Positions 10,702 through 32,181 of a DNA stretch of 35,030 bases are shown here, one piece after another. The stretch is from Candidatus Gastranaerophilales bacterium (GTDB taxonomy: Bacteria; Cyanobacteriota; Vampirovibrionia; Gastranaerophilales; Gastranaerophilaceae): assembly GCA_944324895.1 (NCBI GenBank), contig CALUYC010000030.1, forward strand, positions 1 through 35,030, given 5' to 3'. The notes beneath the pieces are model-generated. The model made no database searches and was not told the origin of the DNA. It saw only the letters and a list, made by a program, of their open reading frames with translations. Both the position numbers and the translations under genes were made by a program. Positions within the stretch are counted from its first letter, which is position 1, and each line of letters opens with the position of its first letter.

Positions 10702-11232
10702 TTATAATTCTTTAAGCTCTTTATTTGTGTCCAGCATCTTGGCAAGTGTTTTTGCATCGCCTTTTAGTTTAAAATATTCAGCAAATTTTGGGGTCGTTTT
10801 AAGATTATAAGACCTGCCGTTTCTGTCTTTTGTACGTGAAATAAGACCTTTTTCAACAAGTTCGGCTACATGCTCATATGCATTAGAGCGCAACTCTTTA
10901 AGTGCAGACTGCCTGATTGGCTCTTTTAGTGCAATTACCGTTAGAGTTTTTAACACTGCAGGTTTTAAATCCACAGGGCAAAGTTTTTCAACAATATCTA
11001 AATGCTCGGCTCTGACTTGTATTATATAACCATCCTCATCATCAATCTCAAGAGCACCTTCGCGGGAAGAATAATCAAACATTAAATCTAAAAGTGCACT
11101 TTCAACTTCATCTTCGCGAACACCTAAAAGCTCTGCAATTTCCAGCGGTTGCATAGCACGAGCAGTTACAAACAAAACCGCTTCAACTTTTGCTTTTAAA
11201 TTATTAACTTCATTTATATCTTCAGCTTGCAA
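10702..11232 (-). CDS. scpB: Segregation and condensation protein B
   Basis: A winged-helix kite protein that dimerises and binds the middle of ScpA, forming the SMC-ScpAB condensin that organises and segregates the chromosome. KAKVEAVLFVTARAMQPLEIAELLG near the start and LDIVEKLCPVDLKPAVLKTLTVIALKEPIRQS in the centre (given here as landmarks 75-105) are typical of ScpB. GRSYNLKTTPKFAEYF matches the second winged helix. I prefer the TTG at 11232 because GGAGG lies six bases ahead. A TTG at 11247 would place that ribosome site inside the gene. With this start the protein is 176 residues and overlaps scpA by 11 bases, suggesting coupled translation. It ends the smc-scpA-scpB run. Confidence 0.9.
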   Translation of the reverse strand: MQAEDINEVNNLKAKVEAVLFVTARAMQPLEIAELLGVREDEVESALLDLMFDYSSREGALEIDDEDGYIIQVRAEHLDIVEKLCPVDLKPAVLKTLTVIALKEPIRQSALKELRSNAYEHVAELVEKGLISRTKDRNGRSYNLKTTPKFAEYFKLKGDAKTLAKMLDTNKELKEL

Positions 11233-12100
11233 CTTCTTCCTCCGCAAGTTTTTGCGCTTTTGTTACATAAAGTTTTCCGTAAAAATCCTTTTGGATGATG
11301 TCGACTTCTTCTTTTACCATAAGAAATAAAACCGCAATATAAGCACTGCTTTTATCAAAACCCAAAAGAGTAAGTTCGCGCAATTCTATTTTATCTTCTT
11401 TTTTAAATATTTGTTCTAAATTTTGGCGCATTTTTTCAACAACAGTTTCAATGTATTCATCATGCGCAAGGTTTAAAATATCCTTGGCTTTTAGTTTAGA
11501 ATAATCTCTAACACGTCTTTTTTGTCTTTCGAGTGCATTTTTAAGACTTTGTTTTTTTTCTAACTGTTCATAAAACTCTAAATGACGAATTAAGTCTTTT
11601 AAGGTAACGTTTCTGTTTCTGTTTAATCTTACGCTGGTACGTCTTTGCAACACCTCATCAAAAGAAATGACATTTGAAGAAGACATCTGCAGTTGTTCTA
11701 CTTCATAATTTGCCTCAAAACCGTCGTCAAAAAATTCATCCTCAGGTGTTTCAAGGTCATCAAGCGTAATTCCTTCAATAATATTTGATTTTAATCTTAA
11801 TAAAATTGAAGTAAACAAAAGAGCTCTGCCGATTGATTTTAAATCTTTTATATTTAATTCGCTCAGACGTTGCATATACTTGTCGTATAAGTCAACAATA
11901 TCTATATTCCAAGGATCAATTTTACCGCTTCGCGCTAAATCAACAAGGATTTCAATAGCATCAACATTTGAATCTTTTTGAATACCGTTTTTTGAAATAA
12001 ATTCAATATTTGACCCGAAATCAACAGTGGAATCAAGCCCTGCGATATTTTCCAAGACTTCGTTTTTTGTTCCGTAAAAATTCTCTACGCCGTTGTTCAT
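11222..12100 (-). CDS. scpA: Segregation and condensation protein A
   Basis: The kleisin that bridges the two SMC heads and recruits ScpB. DAIEILVDLARSGKIDPWNI at about residues 47-66 matches the kleisin N-terminal helix region, in the form 'A..LLIDLA..GEIDPWDI' that I associate with cyanobacterial ScpA. The first 45 residues are extra and unconserved. The central part is helical and charged, and the C-terminus (LRELTLLGFDKSSAYIAVLFLMVKEEVDIIQ) matches the winged helix that binds the SMC head. The 292 residues are slightly long for the family. It starts 16 bases after the smc stop with TAGGA upstream. If smc is broken by its nonsense codon, this subunit would lack a normal partner. Confidence 0.9.
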   Translation of the reverse strand: MNNGVENFYGTKNEVLENIAGLDSTVDFGSNIEFISKNGIQKDSNVDAIEILVDLARSGKIDPWNIDIVDLYDKYMQRLSELNIKDLKSIGRALLFTSILLRLKSNIIEGITLDDLETPEDEFFDDGFEANYEVEQLQMSSSNVISFDEVLQRRTSVRLNRNRNVTLKDLIRHLEFYEQLEKKQSLKNALERQKRRVRDYSKLKAKDILNLAHDEYIETVVEKMRQNLEQIFKKEDKIELRELTLLGFDKSSAYIAVLFLMVKEEVDIIQKDFYGKLYVTKAQKLAEEEVAS

Positions 12101-12116
12101 ACTACGCTATTCCTAC

Positions 12117-13943
12117 CTATTGCACTACTTCCTCTTTTAAACCGACACCAGAGATTTTTGTCACACCCTTTCCGCGTTGCGTAACACCAATCATTCTGTC
12201 GGCAGAATCTATCATTGGTTTTCTCAAGCTTACAACTACAAATTGAGTTTGTTTTGCTTGCATATTAATCATTTTTGCCAATTTTTCAACATTTGGGCCG
12301 TCAAGGTGCATATCGACCTCATCAAACGCATAAAATGGAGCCGGCAAGTGTCTTTGGACCGCAAATACAAATGCTAGCGCTGTTAAAGTCTTCTCTCCAC
12401 CAGACATAGCAGCGAGTTTTTGGTTTTTCTTATCTCTAATGCTTGCCCTAAAAACAAGTCCGCCTGCAAAAGGATCGTTTGGATTTTCCAAAACAAGTTC
12501 ACCTTCACCCTCCGAAAGCATCGGGAAAATATCTTTAAAATTCTGATTAACAGCATTAAAGGTTTTTAAAAATTCTTCTTTTTTATTTACCTCATAACCT
12601 TTCATGCGCTCTAAAATTTCAATACGTTCTTTTTCGAGAGTTTCTATTCTTTGAGTAAGCTCGTTTAGAGCGCTTGAAACTGTATCATAATCGTTAATTG
12701 CACGCATATTTACAAGTCCCAAGGCTTCAATTTTCTTTTGCAGTTTTTGAATTTTTGAATTAATTTCATCAAGAGAAATCTCGGTCGGTTCTATTTCTTT
12801 AGGGTTAATTCCCGCGTCTTCAAGTTCTTTTGCGGTTTGTTCCAAAATAGGCTCAAGTTCACGTCTGCGCGCTTTTGAACTTTCAATTTGCTCGTTTATT
12901 CTCTCGAGTTCAACTTCTATATTATTTTTTGTCTTTTCAAGTTCCAAAAGTTCATTCTGCGCGTCATCACGCTGTTTTTTATTCTGGACAAGATTTTTGC
13001 CGAGTTCTACAATTTTTTCTTCGTATTCTTTTAGTACAATTTTTAGTTCATCAATTTCTTGTGCGTATTTTTTCTTGTCTTCTTCAAGTTTTTTATTTTC
13101 TTCACCCACACGAACAATGTCGTCTTGTCTTTGTTTAATACTCATATCGTGGAATTTGATATTGTTTTTCTCTTTTTCAATGTCATTTTGAATATTTAAA
13201 ATTTCACGTTCGATATTTTTAATTTCGTTCTCTACACCTTGCGTTTTTTCTTTTAATTCCTTTAACTCGCCCTCATCAATTAATTTTTCAACTTCGCCGA
13301 TTTCACCTTGAACTTGGGATATTTTATCAAGCAATTCAACATGGCGCGCTTCCATAGAATCCAGTTTTTTCTCATTATCTTTAATTTTTGGGGTAATTTC
13401 ATTTATTCTTGCAAAACCTTTTTCAATTACCTCTTTTGCGCCAGAGTTAACTTTTATAAGATTTTGAAGCTCGTATTTTGCACTATTGTAGACATTTAGC
13501 GCATTTGAATAGTCTGCTCTTACTTGCTCTAAGCGTTTTTCCAAGGTATTTCTTTTTTGTTCAAGTTCTTTATATTCAATTTCAAAGGCTTTTAAACGTT
13601 TTTTAAATGTTTCCAGCTCCTTATCTTCTGCTTTGCCAAAAACCGAGGTTGCACGTCTTCTTGCGCCACCTGTTATAGCGCCTGTTTTTTCAAAAATATC
13701 GCCTTCAAGAGTTACAACACGATACTTGCTCATAAGTTTTTTTGCGCACTCAAGGTTTTCAACAACAATGGTTTCACCCAGCGCAAAGTAAAATGCGTCA
13801 ATATATTTATCGTCAAAATCGATAAGATTTATTGCAAAATCAATAACACCTTCATTTTTAGGCAAAGAAAGTCTCGAGGGAGCTTTTTTTATTTTTTTTA
13901 GCGATAAAAAAGTTAACCTGCCGCAACCATACGATTTTAATAT
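12117..13943 (-). CDS. smc: SMC C-terminal half, after the in-frame stop
   Basis: The second half of the chromosome condensation ATPase, open from codon 561 to 1168 of the full frame. It begins within the hinge (ILKSYGCGRLTFLSL, then the second hinge part LPKNEGVIDFAINLIDF and TGAITGGARRR). It continues through a long antiparallel coiled coil to the C-terminal head. The ABC signature SGGEK is at codons 1074-1078 and Walker B FYAFDEVDMHLD near 1097-1108, both intact. The DEVD-M-LDG form is one I associate with cyanobacterial SMC. No ATG or ribosome site suitable for an independent start is visible. The first near-cognate start in frame is TTG at 13865, which would lose 26 hinge residues and has no Shine-Dalgarno. 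As written, this half would be made only by readthrough or weak re-initiation. Confidence 0.85.
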   Translation of the reverse strand: MLKSYGCGRLTFLSLKKIKKAPSRLSLPKNEGVIDFAINLIDFDDKYIDAFYFALGETIVVENLECAKKLMSKYRVVTLEGDIFEKTGAITGGARRRATSVFGKAEDKELETFKKRLKAFEIEYKELEQKRNTLEKRLEQVRADYSNALNVYNSAKYELQNLIKVNSGAKEVIEKGFARINEITPKIKDNEKKLDSMEARHVELLDKISQVQGEIGEVEKLIDEGELKELKEKTQGVENEIKNIEREILNIQNDIEKEKNNIKFHDMSIKQRQDDIVRVGEENKKLEEDKKKYAQEIDELKIVLKEYEEKIVELGKNLVQNKKQRDDAQNELLELEKTKNNIEVELERINEQIESSKARRRELEPILEQTAKELEDAGINPKEIEPTEISLDEINSKIQKLQKKIEALGLVNMRAINDYDTVSSALNELTQRIETLEKERIEILERMKGYEVNKKEEFLKTFNAVNQNFKDIFPMLSEGEGELVLENPNDPFAGGLVFRASIRDKKNQKLAAMSGGEKTLTALAFVFAVQRHLPAPFYAFDEVDMHLDGPNVEKLAKMINMQAKQTQFVVVSLRKPMIDSADRMIGVTQRGKGVTKISGVGLKEEVVQ

Positions 13944-13946
13944 TTA
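13944..13946 (-). other. smc: In-frame TAA interrupting smc
   Basis: Read on the minus strand the frame runs GAG GTT GCA GCG AGA GCA ATT TAA ATA TTA AAA TCG. The TAA is codon 560 of a 1168-codon frame. Both sides align by eye with the SMC hinge ('..A.AI.FLK....GR.TFLPL..'), where E, Q or K is usual at this position. One base change (GAA, CAA or AAA to TAA) explains it. No frameshift is involved. Confidence 0.9.
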
Positions 13947-15623
13947 AATTGCTCTCGCTGCAACCTCTTCATCATCCAAAACGAAAAACCTTGAACGAGC
14001 ACCCATAGCAACATCCAGCGCATCTGTATATTCGCCTTCTACATCTGCCAACTGCATTAGCGGGGCGTGTACACCTTCAAGATGAGCATTCATAATAGTT
14101 TCGGTTCCTGCACCCAACGCAGCGCTTTTATATGCTTGTTTGCTAGCTTCAAGAGATACTATTTTTCTGTGTGAAAGTTGAATATTATGTTCTAAATCCT
14201 GAAGCTGAGTTCTTGTTTTATCTAAATCTTCAAATGTAATTTTTTGAACACTTTTGCACTCATCAAGCTCTTTTTGCAGTGTTTGTATTTGCAATTCAAG
14301 CTTATCACGTTTGTCGTCAAAAGTTTTTTGCCCTTCTTCGAGTTCTTCAATTTTCTTATTTATTTCACCAAGTTCTTTTTGAAGATTAGAAAGTTCATTT
14401 TCAAGCGGAAGTTTCTCTTTAATAAGTTCTGTTTCTTTATCTTTTAGAGTATCAAGCTCTTTTCTGAGAAAATTTCTGCGTTCAATGTGCTCATCAGCGG
14501 TTTTATTCAACCCTGACATTTCAAGCAGAATTTGAGAAAGCTCGGTTTTTTTCTTTTCTAGCTCATCTTCACGAGTTTTAATAAGTTGTTCTTTTTCTTC
14601 TATAGCTTTAATTATTTCTGCCTTTTTAGCACTAAGATTTTCTATACCATTTTTTGAATTTTCTGCAGTTTTTTTGTTATCTAAGATAAGTTTGTCACTG
14701 TGCGCTATCGATGTTTCTTTACGGCTTATTTCGCCCTTCTTTTCTTCCAAAAGCTTTTTAACTTCAAGCTGTTTATCTTCACCTTGTGCGCGCACCATTT
14801 CGCAAATTTCTTTATATTTTGCGGTTTTATCCTCGATTTTTGACTTTGTTTCATCTAATCTTACGTTTTGAACTTTTATTTCTTTTGTTGAAGTTAGGAT
14901 ATTTTGGTGTACTAAATCAAGTGAACGCTTGGTATCAAAGTATTTTATAACATTGACCTTGCCTTCTAATTCGACTTTTTCATCATGCAAAGCTTTGTAC
15001 TTTAGCGCCATTTCGCGTTCTTCTTTTAATTCTTCCAATCTTGCATCTTTTTCATTTTTAACAATTAAAGAATTTTGAACACGAGCCTCAACAGTTTCAA
15101 GCTCTTTTTGAGCAGCGTCAATTTTTCTGTCAAAGTCAGCAGTACCGGCTATTTCATCAATATAATAACGCCTGTCGCGCGAACTGCAATTTGCAATAGT
15201 TGTAACATGACCTTGCATAATAACATTTAAACTGTTTGTAGTAATGTTATATTTTTCAAGTTCAGAGTGTATTTGGGTAAGCGTACATTGCTTATCGTTC
15301 ATATAATACGTACTTTGCACGCCTTGAGATGTCTTTCTGATTTTCCTTGCTATAATAAGCTCATCTTCTTCATCCAAAGCAAAAGTAACTCTTACAAAAG
15401 CTTCGTTGCGTTTATTATGAGTTGAAATTAAATCGACAGCGCCTTGTTCTGAGCGAAGTTCTTTTGCACTTGATAGACCAAGTGCAAACAAAATACTATC
15501 AATAATATTGCTTTTTCCTGAACCGTTTGGACCCGAAACAACAGTAAAACCATCCAAAAACGGTATGGTATTTTGGTTTGCAAAGGATTTAAAATTGTCT
15601 ATTTCTAACTGTTTAATACGCAT
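13944..15623 (-). CDS. smc: SMC N-terminal half, ending at the in-frame stop
   Basis: The first 559 codons of the SMC condensin ATPase. MRIKQLEIDNFKSFANQ begins the head, and Walker A GPNGSGKSN lies at residues 31-39. Q-loop and arm sequence continue into a coiled coil of roughly residues 165-490. The first hinge segment follows (GVHAPLMQLADVEGEYTDAL, then AMGARSRFFVLDDEEVAARAI), ending at the TAA. A product of this length would have Walker A but lack the signature motif and Walker B, so alone it could not hydrolyse ATP. The intact frame from 12117 to 15623 would give a normal-length SMC. The start is well supported: GGAAG lies about nine bases before the ATG. It heads the smc-scpA-scpB run. 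Confidence 0.9.
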   Translation of the reverse strand: MRIKQLEIDNFKSFANQNTIPFLDGFTVVSGPNGSGKSNIIDSILFALGLSSAKELRSEQGAVDLISTHNKRNEAFVRVTFALDEEDELIIARKIRKTSQGVQSTYYMNDKQCTLTQIHSELEKYNITTNSLNVIMQGHVTTIANCSSRDRRYYIDEIAGTADFDRKIDAAQKELETVEARVQNSLIVKNEKDARLEELKEEREMALKYKALHDEKVELEGKVNVIKYFDTKRSLDLVHQNILTSTKEIKVQNVRLDETKSKIEDKTAKYKEICEMVRAQGEDKQLEVKKLLEEKKGEISRKETSIAHSDKLILDNKKTAENSKNGIENLSAKKAEIIKAIEEKEQLIKTREDELEKKKTELSQILLEMSGLNKTADEHIERRNFLRKELDTLKDKETELIKEKLPLENELSNLQKELGEINKKIEELEEGQKTFDDKRDKLELQIQTLQKELDECKSVQKITFEDLDKTRTQLQDLEHNIQLSHRKIVSLEASKQAYKSAALGAGTETIMNAHLEGVHAPLMQLADVEGEYTDALDVAMGARSRFFVLDDEEVAARAI

Positions 15624-28644: not shown

Positions 28645-31600
28645 TTAGCTTATACGCTTTAATTGACAATATGCTCTAAAAGCAGTCAATTCCTTTTGAA
28701 TAACGTAGTGATGTTTATCAAGACCCAAACGCGATGCCAAAAGCAGAGCTTTTTCGTAAACTTTTATTGCATTTTGCGCAACTTGATATTTCTTTTCTTC
28801 TTCAACATGGGCGGTTAAATCTTGCAGAATATTTGCTCTTAATTTATATAAATGCATTTGCAGGAATAATAGTTCATTTGCACTTGCATCCTGCAAAGCA
28901 AGTTCACAATACATTTTTGCATTATCAAAATCATTCTTTTGCAAATACGCGCGAGAGAGCAGTTCTTGAAAAAGAATTTTGAAATTAATACTGCTAATTT
29001 TTGCGCTCTCACAAATTGTAACCGCTTTTTCACATATTTCTATGCACCTGTCAGGCCCTGATGAAGGCAGGGTTGCTTTTGCACTAATGTACCAAGCCAA
29101 AAGTGCACCAAAGGCTATTTTTTTATCAGAAAAATATGTCATTTGTTCGGCACAAATTTCAAGCGCGCGAAGAGCATTATTTTCTTTTAGTAGAATATAT
29201 GCAAGCAAGGTTTTTAAAATGTTTTTAGTATAGTCATCGCCGCAGTTGTTTGCAAAAGTAACCGCTTCAAATAAATCTTCTTTTATATTTTCAAAATTAC
29301 CGCTGAAGACTTTGTTAAACAAATCTATCAAGTTCCACTTTGAAACAAGTTTTAAATCATTAACCGCATATGAAAATTCTTTTAATATTGACTGTAAAAT
29401 CTCGTCAGAATCTTTTATAAAACCGCGAGAAGTTTGCGCGCAGGCATGGGATAGTGCCAGATGTAATTTTAACCTTGTAGAATGATGACTTTTATCTTTA
29501 TTAAGTTCTTTTTGAATTTCTTCTATTAATTCAAATGCAAGCGGACTGCCTTGTTGTGCAAAAGATTCCGCAAGTATTATATTTGCCATAATCCAGGCTT
29601 CATAAACTTCTCTTATACTTGCAAATTCACTTTTTTTAGGATGCCTTAAATAATCTTGCAAAATCGGGTTAACTTCATTGTTAACAATACTTGCAATTTC
29701 GGACCAATTACCAAGATATAAAAGAGCTTCAAGTTTTCTTGTTTTAATAAGTGCTCTTTGCAGCTCTTGTTTTGGTTTTGAATAAATTGCAAGAACAGCA
29801 TCGACAGTTTCAACTATTGCAGGATAGTTTTGCGCCATTTTGCAACTTTGAATTAAATAACCGCTTAGCTCTACAACTTTGTTTTCATTTTCACTGTTTT
29901 GTGCGCTCACTATGGCATTTGATAAGTATTCCATAGCTTCTTTTGGGTTTTTATTGTACGTCAATTTACCCAAACGCTCACAGATATTGTTTTTAATGTA
30001 TTCAAAATTAGAAAGTTTAACGTCTTCTAAAAGAATTAAGCTTTGTTTTTGACACAAAGTATAAAAACTTACATCCCCAATATAAGATGCAAGTTTTAAA
30101 CTCATAGTCCAAAGACTGAAGGCAAGGTCTTTTTCACCTGTTATTTGTGCCAAAAGCGAAGGTATTGCAGGAGATGATACTGTTCTTTTGCAAATTTCTC
30201 CAAGCAATTTTTTAAATACATCCAAAAGATCCTTATCTTCTTTTGCATGTGCATAGGTATTCGACCAAACAAGAGAATTTCTAAACTCAAAAATATTTTC
30301 GGTAATTCTTTTTACATAACCGTTCTTCTCTAAAAATGCAGCAACGCGCTCGAAATTTTCAAGCTCAAGAGCAAAAACTTTTTCCATTAATGATTTTGTA
30401 AATTTGCCCCCCAGCATAGATGAAACCATTAAGAAATCGTATTCAAAACGATGATTTTCTTTTAAAAATGCAAAGCGTTTATCCATCAGCTCTTTTAAGT
30501 CATTAATAATATACATTTGGCTTTGTGATGGATCAAATACAAATTCCTTGTTTTGCAAAGTAAGAATTTTTGTTTCTTTTAAATCGTATAGAACCTGCTC
30601 TACATATGCAAAATTACCCTGTGCATTAAGTGCAATTTGATTCAATACACCTTGTGGCAAAATTTCACAACTGCCTATTTGCAGTTTTATGAAGTCTGCG
30701 ACATCACTTATTTCCTTGCGCGCAAGATTAATGTTTAAACATGCGTTTTTAGGCAGTTTTTCGCTGTTTATATACATCGCGATTGCATGTTGATTTCTAT
30801 ATGTTAAGACAAGTTTTGCACCTGTTTTAAAATAATCACATTCTATTAAATATTTTATAAAATCAAAAGAAGTTTCGTCGATAAGGTCAAAATCATCAAT
30901 TACAAGCGTAAGCTTGTTTTTAGACTTTAAATATACCAAAATATCCCTTAGGTCTTCAAAAGTACGCTTTTTATTTTCTAAAATATTCTCATAATATGCC
31001 TCTTTTAGAGGATAAACAATATTTATAAGGGTATCTATTTTTTCTTGCGAAACATGTCCTGATAAATTTTGCCCCAAAACATTTTTTAACTCTTGAACCC
31101 TTTTTTCATATCTGCTCGGCGCAAAAGATAAATCAAACAATGAGAGGCAAACGTCCTGTATAAGGCCCATAGGAGTCACCTGAGTTAATGCACAGCAGTG
31201 TCCTTTTAAAACTATGTGCGGTTCACCTTCAAGCCTTTTATACATGGTTTCAAGTAAATACGTTTTACCGCAACCTCTTGGCGCATTGATTGAAATCGCT
31301 TTTATTTCGCTCCTTGTATCGTTAATGGCATCAAGTACCATTTCAAGAGCGACATCATCTCTTTGGCACTCGCTTTGGGAAAACACCGGCTTTTGGTCTA
31401 AAAACACCATTTTGTATGATACAGGCGAAATTTTTATAAGCGGTATCTCTGATGAGAGCAGCGAATATGCACCTTCTGAGGTAATTATGTCTTTTTCAAT
31501 GCCTGATTCAAGTTGTTTTGGGGAACGTCCGGATTGATATTCATCCTCTTTTAAAATAGCGTATTTGTATGTAATTCCAACGCCCAAAGTCTCATCTAAA

Positions 31601-32181
31601 ATATTGTTAAATTTTTCAAATTCATCAGAAAAAAGTTTGACTTTATCAAGGAATTTAAAGTTTTTAGTATGCGGAATTTTAAACACGACAGTATGCGGGT
31701 TAATAAATTCGCAAGGAACGTTAAAACCCAATTTAACGGATGTTTTAATGTTTAATACTACTTTTTGCCTGAATTCTTCGTCTTTATATTTATCAAAAAG
31801 ATTTTCAAGGTTAATAAAATCAATAAAAACTACGAGTTTTTGCTGTTTTTGAGCAGGCTGCTCCTGAGGATGTTTTTGTACAGACTCGTTTTTAGGTTTC
31901 CTGAATGTTTTTTGTTCTTGTTCTTGCGCTTTGTTTTCCTCGGTTTTTTTTATTTCGTTAAACACATAGGAACACTTACGACATTCTGAGCTTGAAGCAT
32001 AATTTGCACTGCCGCATTTTGGACAAAATTTGACAAATGCAAAACCACATACCGAACAGGAAGAAGAACCTATTCTTGTATAATTTCCACATCTTGGACA
32101 CTTAAATTTAAGCCTCAGACCGCATCCGGGGCATATAGTATCTTGAGAGCTTACTTCAGTTTTGCACTTTGGACAAATCAC
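28645..32181 (-). CDS. Zinc-ribbon, P-loop NTPase and TPR protein
   Basis: A 1178-residue cytoplasmic protein with the layout of a signalling NTPase. The first 72 residues hold three CxxC-CxxC zinc ribbons (C3/C6/C17/C20, C28/C31/C42/C45, C53/C56/C67/C70). A charged Gln/Lys linker follows. Residues 115-262 start LVVFIDFINLENLFDKY and end IKISPVSYKMVFL, which resembles a degenerate class III nucleotide cyclase domain. Walker A (APRGCGKT, 300-307) and Walker B (LTLVIDD, 424-430) define an AAA/STAND-type ATPase. From about 640 onward the sequence is helical and looks like TPR repeats. The start is GTG 32181 with only weak GAG ahead. It is first in the run leading to mfd. Its function is unknown; sensing or scaffold roles fit this architecture. 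Confidence 0.85.
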   Translation of the reverse strand: MICPKCKTEVSSQDTICPGCGLRLKFKCPRCGNYTRIGSSSCSVCGFAFVKFCPKCGSANYASSSECRKCSYVFNEIKKTEENKAQEQEQKTFRKPKNESVQKHPQEQPAQKQQKLVVFIDFINLENLFDKYKDEEFRQKVVLNIKTSVKLGFNVPCEFINPHTVVFKIPHTKNFKFLDKVKLFSDEFEKFNNILDETLGVGITYKYAILKEDEYQSGRSPKQLESGIEKDIITSEGAYSLLSSEIPLIKISPVSYKMVFLDQKPVFSQSECQRDDVALEMVLDAINDTRSEIKAISINAPRGCGKTYLLETMYKRLEGEPHIVLKGHCCALTQVTPMGLIQDVCLSLFDLSFAPSRYEKRVQELKNVLGQNLSGHVSQEKIDTLINIVYPLKEAYYENILENKKRTFEDLRDILVYLKSKNKLTLVIDDFDLIDETSFDFIKYLIECDYFKTGAKLVLTYRNQHAIAMYINSEKLPKNACLNINLARKEISDVADFIKLQIGSCEILPQGVLNQIALNAQGNFAYVEQVLYDLKETKILTLQNKEFVFDPSQSQMYIINDLKELMDKRFAFLKENHRFEYDFLMVSSMLGGKFTKSLMEKVFALELENFERVAAFLEKNGYVKRITENIFEFRNSLVWSNTYAHAKEDKDLLDVFKKLLGEICKRTVSSPAIPSLLAQITGEKDLAFSLWTMSLKLASYIGDVSFYTLCQKQSLILLEDVKLSNFEYIKNNICERLGKLTYNKNPKEAMEYLSNAIVSAQNSENENKVVELSGYLIQSCKMAQNYPAIVETVDAVLAIYSKPKQELQRALIKTRKLEALLYLGNWSEIASIVNNEVNPILQDYLRHPKKSEFASIREVYEAWIMANIILAESFAQQGSPLAFELIEEIQKELNKDKSHHSTRLKLHLALSHACAQTSRGFIKDSDEILQSILKEFSYAVNDLKLVSKWNLIDLFNKVFSGNFENIKEDLFEAVTFANNCGDDYTKNILKTLLAYILLKENNALRALEICAEQMTYFSDKKIAFGALLAWYISAKATLPSSGPDRCIEICEKAVTICESAKISSINFKILFQELLSRAYLQKNDFDNAKMYCELALQDASANELLFLQMHLYKLRANILQDLTAHVEEEKKYQVAQNAIKVYEKALLLASRLGLDKHHYVIQKELTAFRAYCQLKRIS

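Follow-up and report, generated by a model that had tools for sequence, protein, structure and literature searches.

The chromosome-organizing bacterial Smc (Smc-ScpAB; Pfam families PF02463 and PF06470) can be recognized by its head motifs, long coils, and hinge glycine motif, and it is encoded by a single-copy gene that reads as one uninterrupted frame, with scpA and scpB next to it downstream. B. subtilis grows normally on rich medium when the unrelated zinc hook of Rad50 takes the place of its Smc hinge (PMC5344682), so that the hinge fold can be dispensable as long as the arms are still dimerized, and a damaged hinge need not be lethal. Our search of the literature returned nothing on a split Smc in bacteria. 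The smc gene described here has the motifs, the coils, the single copy, and the neighbors of an ordinary bacterial smc, but differs from it in that codon 560 is a TAA in frame and hinge lobe I has diverged locally. It also has the look of a nonsense allele or a recent pseudogene, with a single lineage-specific point change to a stop and no restart signal; unlike in such an allele, however, the stop sits in a cluster of unusual amino-acid changes. In contrast to the Rad50-hook Smc of B. subtilis, which is one continuous chain, the chain encoded by this gene would be cut.

The window, i.e., the whole stretch of 35,030 nucleotides that was analyzed, is contig C30 of the draft MAG of a gut relative of the cyanobacteria, with 1,416,696 bases in 134 contigs (77.8% complete, 0.25% contamination), whose nearest relatives are MAGs labelled Candidatus Gastranaerophilales, including Candidatus Galligastranaerophilus intestinavium. 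On the minus strand, smc (12117..15623) comprises 1168 codons and a terminal TAA, as stated in the original prediction, and the ABC-head motifs Walker A (GPNGSGKS), signature (MSGGEK), and Walker B (FYAFDEVD), together with the hinge glycine motif (EGDIFEKTGAITGG), can all be read in its translation. The product is 81-89% identical to the full-length Smc of 12 genus members. Its hinge matches PF06470 with 87.2 bits (cut-off 22.5), compared with 97-101 bits for genus members with a full match, and SMC_N (PF02463) matches above its cut-off in two pieces, one on each side of the stop. A hinge search of the MAG found no second Smc hinge, i.e., smc is present in a single copy. Where bacterial Smc has a single uninterrupted frame, this gene has a TAA at codon 560 (13944..13946, minus strand), which had likewise been read correctly. 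The alignment with relatives stays in frame across the stop without an indel, which rules out a frameshift or insertion at this point, in agreement with the earlier reading.

The internal TAA leaves an N-terminal open frame of 559 aa (13944..15623, minus strand), which includes the Walker A head, a coil, and a truncated hinge lobe I, and a C-terminal open frame of 582 aa (12117..13865, minus strand), which starts from a TTG at codon 587 and includes lobe II, a coil, and the head with signature and Walker B. The linked kleisin partners are present, as scpA (11222..12100, minus strand) and scpB (10702..11247, minus strand) adjoin smc downstream; both frames are open, and the earlier description of them as intact is upheld by 84-97% identity to the genus orthologues (the range for the two genes together). 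Elsewhere in the window, positions 28645-32181 encode a 1178-aa protein with N-terminal zinc-ribbon-like CxxC motifs and an apparent P-loop ATPase region, and the N-terminal linker of this protein is highly variable across species.

The original prediction had proposed aligning smc from related genomes at the interrupted codon. In this alignment, all 126 other loci of the order (excluding the window's own, and with some representing the same genome twice) have a sense codon at position 560, namely GAA, GAG, CAA, CAG, GAT, or GAC, with only CAA, CAG, GAA, and GAG occurring in the genus. A hinge survey of 58 genomes, 56 of which gave a hinge match, found a stop only in the window's genome, and a wider survey of 383 genomes gave no stop among the matches listed. 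The stop is real in the assembly and, of all the genomes examined, occurs in this lineage alone, which supports the proposed random, lineage-specific change; no break of the kind expected for a stable gene fission is shared by related lineages. As all examined relatives have an ordinary codon 560, the stop is most likely due to very recent breakage or to an assembly error, and not to a new protein architecture.

The Smc hinge appears to be missing in eight high-quality relatives. In three of them, smc proved to be present in fragments, most of which lie at the ends of contigs, and the other five genomes (G172, G222, G229, G250, and G324; 91-97% complete) have no smc match, owing either to a bin gap or to true loss. 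In L254 (G184:C11:79998-80501), a match to the C-terminal part of Smc lies inside an apparent 24,203-aa open frame that is probably a masked N run, so that smc may be only apparently absent there. In another family of the order, a second short frame of 159 aa with an SMC hinge match (G046:C22:18357-18695) is found beside a full-length smc.

Selection on the gene was examined with a purpose-written codon model, in which branch lengths are fitted on the whole gene and the window branch is given separate omegas. Outside codons 494-587, omega on the window branch is 0.006-0.028, at or below background, and hinge lobe II is conserved with an omega of 0.013. Both halves of smc are under purifying selection, and a recent break of a working gene would look identical. 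Codons 547-576 (13896..13985, minus strand), at the end of hinge lobe I, form an accelerated patch with a window-branch omega of 0.233 versus a background of 0.014 (2dlnL 33.6); the highest value in a scan of five other terminal branches was 15.4. When the excess is modelled as a final selection-free period, the patch requires 16-25% of the branch, whereas the large flanking segments allow at most 1-2%, which indicates that smc overall has not been nonfunctional for as long as that.

This diverged flank of the stop is a feature that the original prediction missed. Of the 803 Smc columns in which the 12 genus members do not vary, 21 are changed in the window, and eight of these fall inside codons 547-576, a clustering that random placement produced less than once in 20,000 trials (P < 5e-5). 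The statement that the sequence after the stop still reads as SMC hinge is only partly correct, as the 30 codons around the stop have lost eight genus-invariant residues. Synonymous divergence in the patch is perhaps raised as well (fitted scale 3.6, LRT 4.9). Judged by a profile of the order, the ten changes in the patch are milder than neutral simulations (P 0.006-0.012), but the support is weaker (P 0.05-0.11) once genus-variable positions are left out or the test is confined to the stretch downstream of the stop, and the test of randomness is equivocal. The Pfam score is 85.8 bits with the observed patch, 95.4 bits with a genus-type patch, and 75.9-89 bits with eight simulated patches. A plain pairwise identity scan, in which smc ranks 56th of 215 genes, does not single out the patch, so that the claim for it rests on the genus-invariant columns.

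No second copy of the patch that could have served as a template was found in the genus or in phages, and a templated origin was rejected. Comparable patches are absent from the mfd, priA, and GH57 genes of the same MAG, which were used as controls. In one relative (L284, G002), a GH57-type protein has ten genus-invariant columns changed within 35 codons near alignment position 534, in an intact gene with no stop; substitution clusters therefore do occur in intact genes. The patch in smc may be ordinary local divergence to which the stop was added by chance, the chance of the stop falling inside it being about 2.6% (30/1168 codons). It may also be that one cause underlies both patch and stop, for example a clustered mutation event or an error in the local consensus.

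The reliability of the assembly was assessed by a scan for stops and frameshifts, in which 441 kb of the MAG were set against a genus member of 99% completeness (1.19 Mb of its sequence), with 80,298 codons aligned in 244 genes. The TAA in smc is the only genuine internal stop in this comparison, and no frameshift was found; five other asterisks, all at the very 5' ends of alignments, are most simply read as reading frames extended upstream. With a lone internal stop and zero frameshifts, the TAA can be put down neither to recoding nor to general noise in the assembly, and the notion of a generally noisy MAG is rejected for stops and frameshifts.

The idea that TAA 560 is decoded as Gln or a different residue, through readthrough or codon reassignment, to give a full-length Smc agrees with the open and conserved frame downstream and with the mildness of the patch changes (P about 0.01 in the looser test), as would be expected if the patch is translated. 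However, we consider it improbable, as no other in-frame TAA, TAG, or TGA occurs in the 244 genes, none of the six tRNAs found in the 441 kb of this partial genome carries an anticodon that would pair with a stop codon, and codon 560 is a stop in no relative. Regulated readthrough, which the original prediction had listed among its options, is left without support by these comparisons. That smc was lost long ago, with the stop as one of its scars, can hardly be credited: the gene does have a stop and a decayed patch, but no other lesion is found in 1168 codons, and selection has not been relaxed over the rest of the gene, where the branch and segment omegas, with less than 1-2% of the branch unconstrained, led us to reject an old pseudogene. 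A stable split Smc, on the other hand, would have its halves made separately, with a restart within the hinge, and paired via their antiparallel coils and heads, with lobe II supplying some dimerization and Smc-ScpAB still working; residues around the break would then have lost constraint. In favor of such an arrangement, both halves are constrained while the patch evolves as if freed from selection for 16-25% of the branch, and the exchange of the B. subtilis hinge for the Rad50 zinc hook is tolerated (PMC5344682). In an AlphaFold2 model of the hinge (TAA read as Q, 50 sequences, mean pLDDT 86.8), whose division into lobes is our own interpretation, the stop falls in codons 552-564, which form the final helix of lobe I, and the candidate restart codon, TTG 587 (13863..13865, minus strand), lies in the linker just ahead of the first strand of the conserved lobe II (codons 593-596). 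Nevertheless, we find a stable split unlikely. There is no ATG between the stop and codon 631, and TTG 587 (first base at 13865) is the only canonical in-frame start in this interval; its Shine-Dalgarno pairing of -3.0 kcal/mol is equalled or bettered at 30% of random positions, and nothing beyond this background-level site was found as a restart signal for the second half. The argument of the original prediction that a missing restart signal speaks against a planned split is therefore sustained. Moreover, codons 577-587 (13863..13895, minus strand), which would be untranslated between the patch and the restart codon, have a window-branch omega of 0, with no amino-acid change and several synonymous ones. 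Imposing a neutral fraction of 0.16 on them costs 2dlnL 7.3, and the probability of zero change if they were neutral is 2.9%. A long-standing split with an untranslated gap is thus argued against, as neutrality does not extend up to the restart codon: codons 577-587 are fully constrained, but codons 561-576 are not. The gap also lacks an indel or a further stop, and no relative examined has a split Smc. As far as could be tested, the stop is not programmed.

The best explanation, to which we assign a probability of about 0.62, is either a recent disruption, in this single lineage, of an smc that was full-length and functional until recently, or a local consensus error, with about equal weight given to a real event and to an artefact. 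The artefact, in which about 90 bp including a false stop are poorly supported or chimeric and the true gene is an ordinary Smc, is a tentative possibility that makes up half of the best explanation and does not come on top of it. It would provide one cause for both patch and stop, and it is consistent with the possibly raised synonymous divergence of the patch and the fragmentation of the MAG. In addition, the contig of a sister MAG (L032, G012:C30) ends at base 13969 within the hinge of smc, near the patch (about codon 531), which perhaps marks an assembly weak spot. Substitution clusters, however, are untypical of short-read consensus errors. The 80,298 codons without other stops or frameshifts, the absence of similar patches in conserved genes of the MAG, and changes that are somewhat milder than random (P 0.05-0.11, and 0.006-0.012 in the looser test) also stand against an artefact. 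What speaks against the best explanation as a whole is the position of the stop inside the sole fast patch, which calls for one cause behind both, and a simple recent point mutation does not supply it.

According to the preferred reading of a recent disruption or local error, smc would have been under selection until very recently as a single full-length Smc that acts together with ScpA and ScpB. The ancestral codon 560 was probably CAA (Gln) or similar, and one C-to-T change would have turned it into TAA, within a hinge lobe I stretch of about 90 bp that has diverged unusually fast. If the base is real, translation would end at codon 560 and yield an N-terminal fragment of 559 residues without hinge dimerization and without the C-terminal half of the ATPase head, and Smc function would consequently be lost or badly reduced in this strain. 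If the base is not real, the stretch would be a local consensus error. The comparisons above show the stop itself, its uniqueness, the patch, and the constraint on the rest of the gene; from them we infer that the stop arose recently or is false, and what it would do to the protein.

If the TAA in smc amounts to no more than a recent nonsense change or an error, it advises caution on reading biology from one draft genome. If, however, the strain truly lives with this allele, then either Smc would be dispensable in this group of bacteria, or condensin would work as two chains without an intact hinge. A two-chain condensin, if true, would bear directly on the purpose of the hinge.
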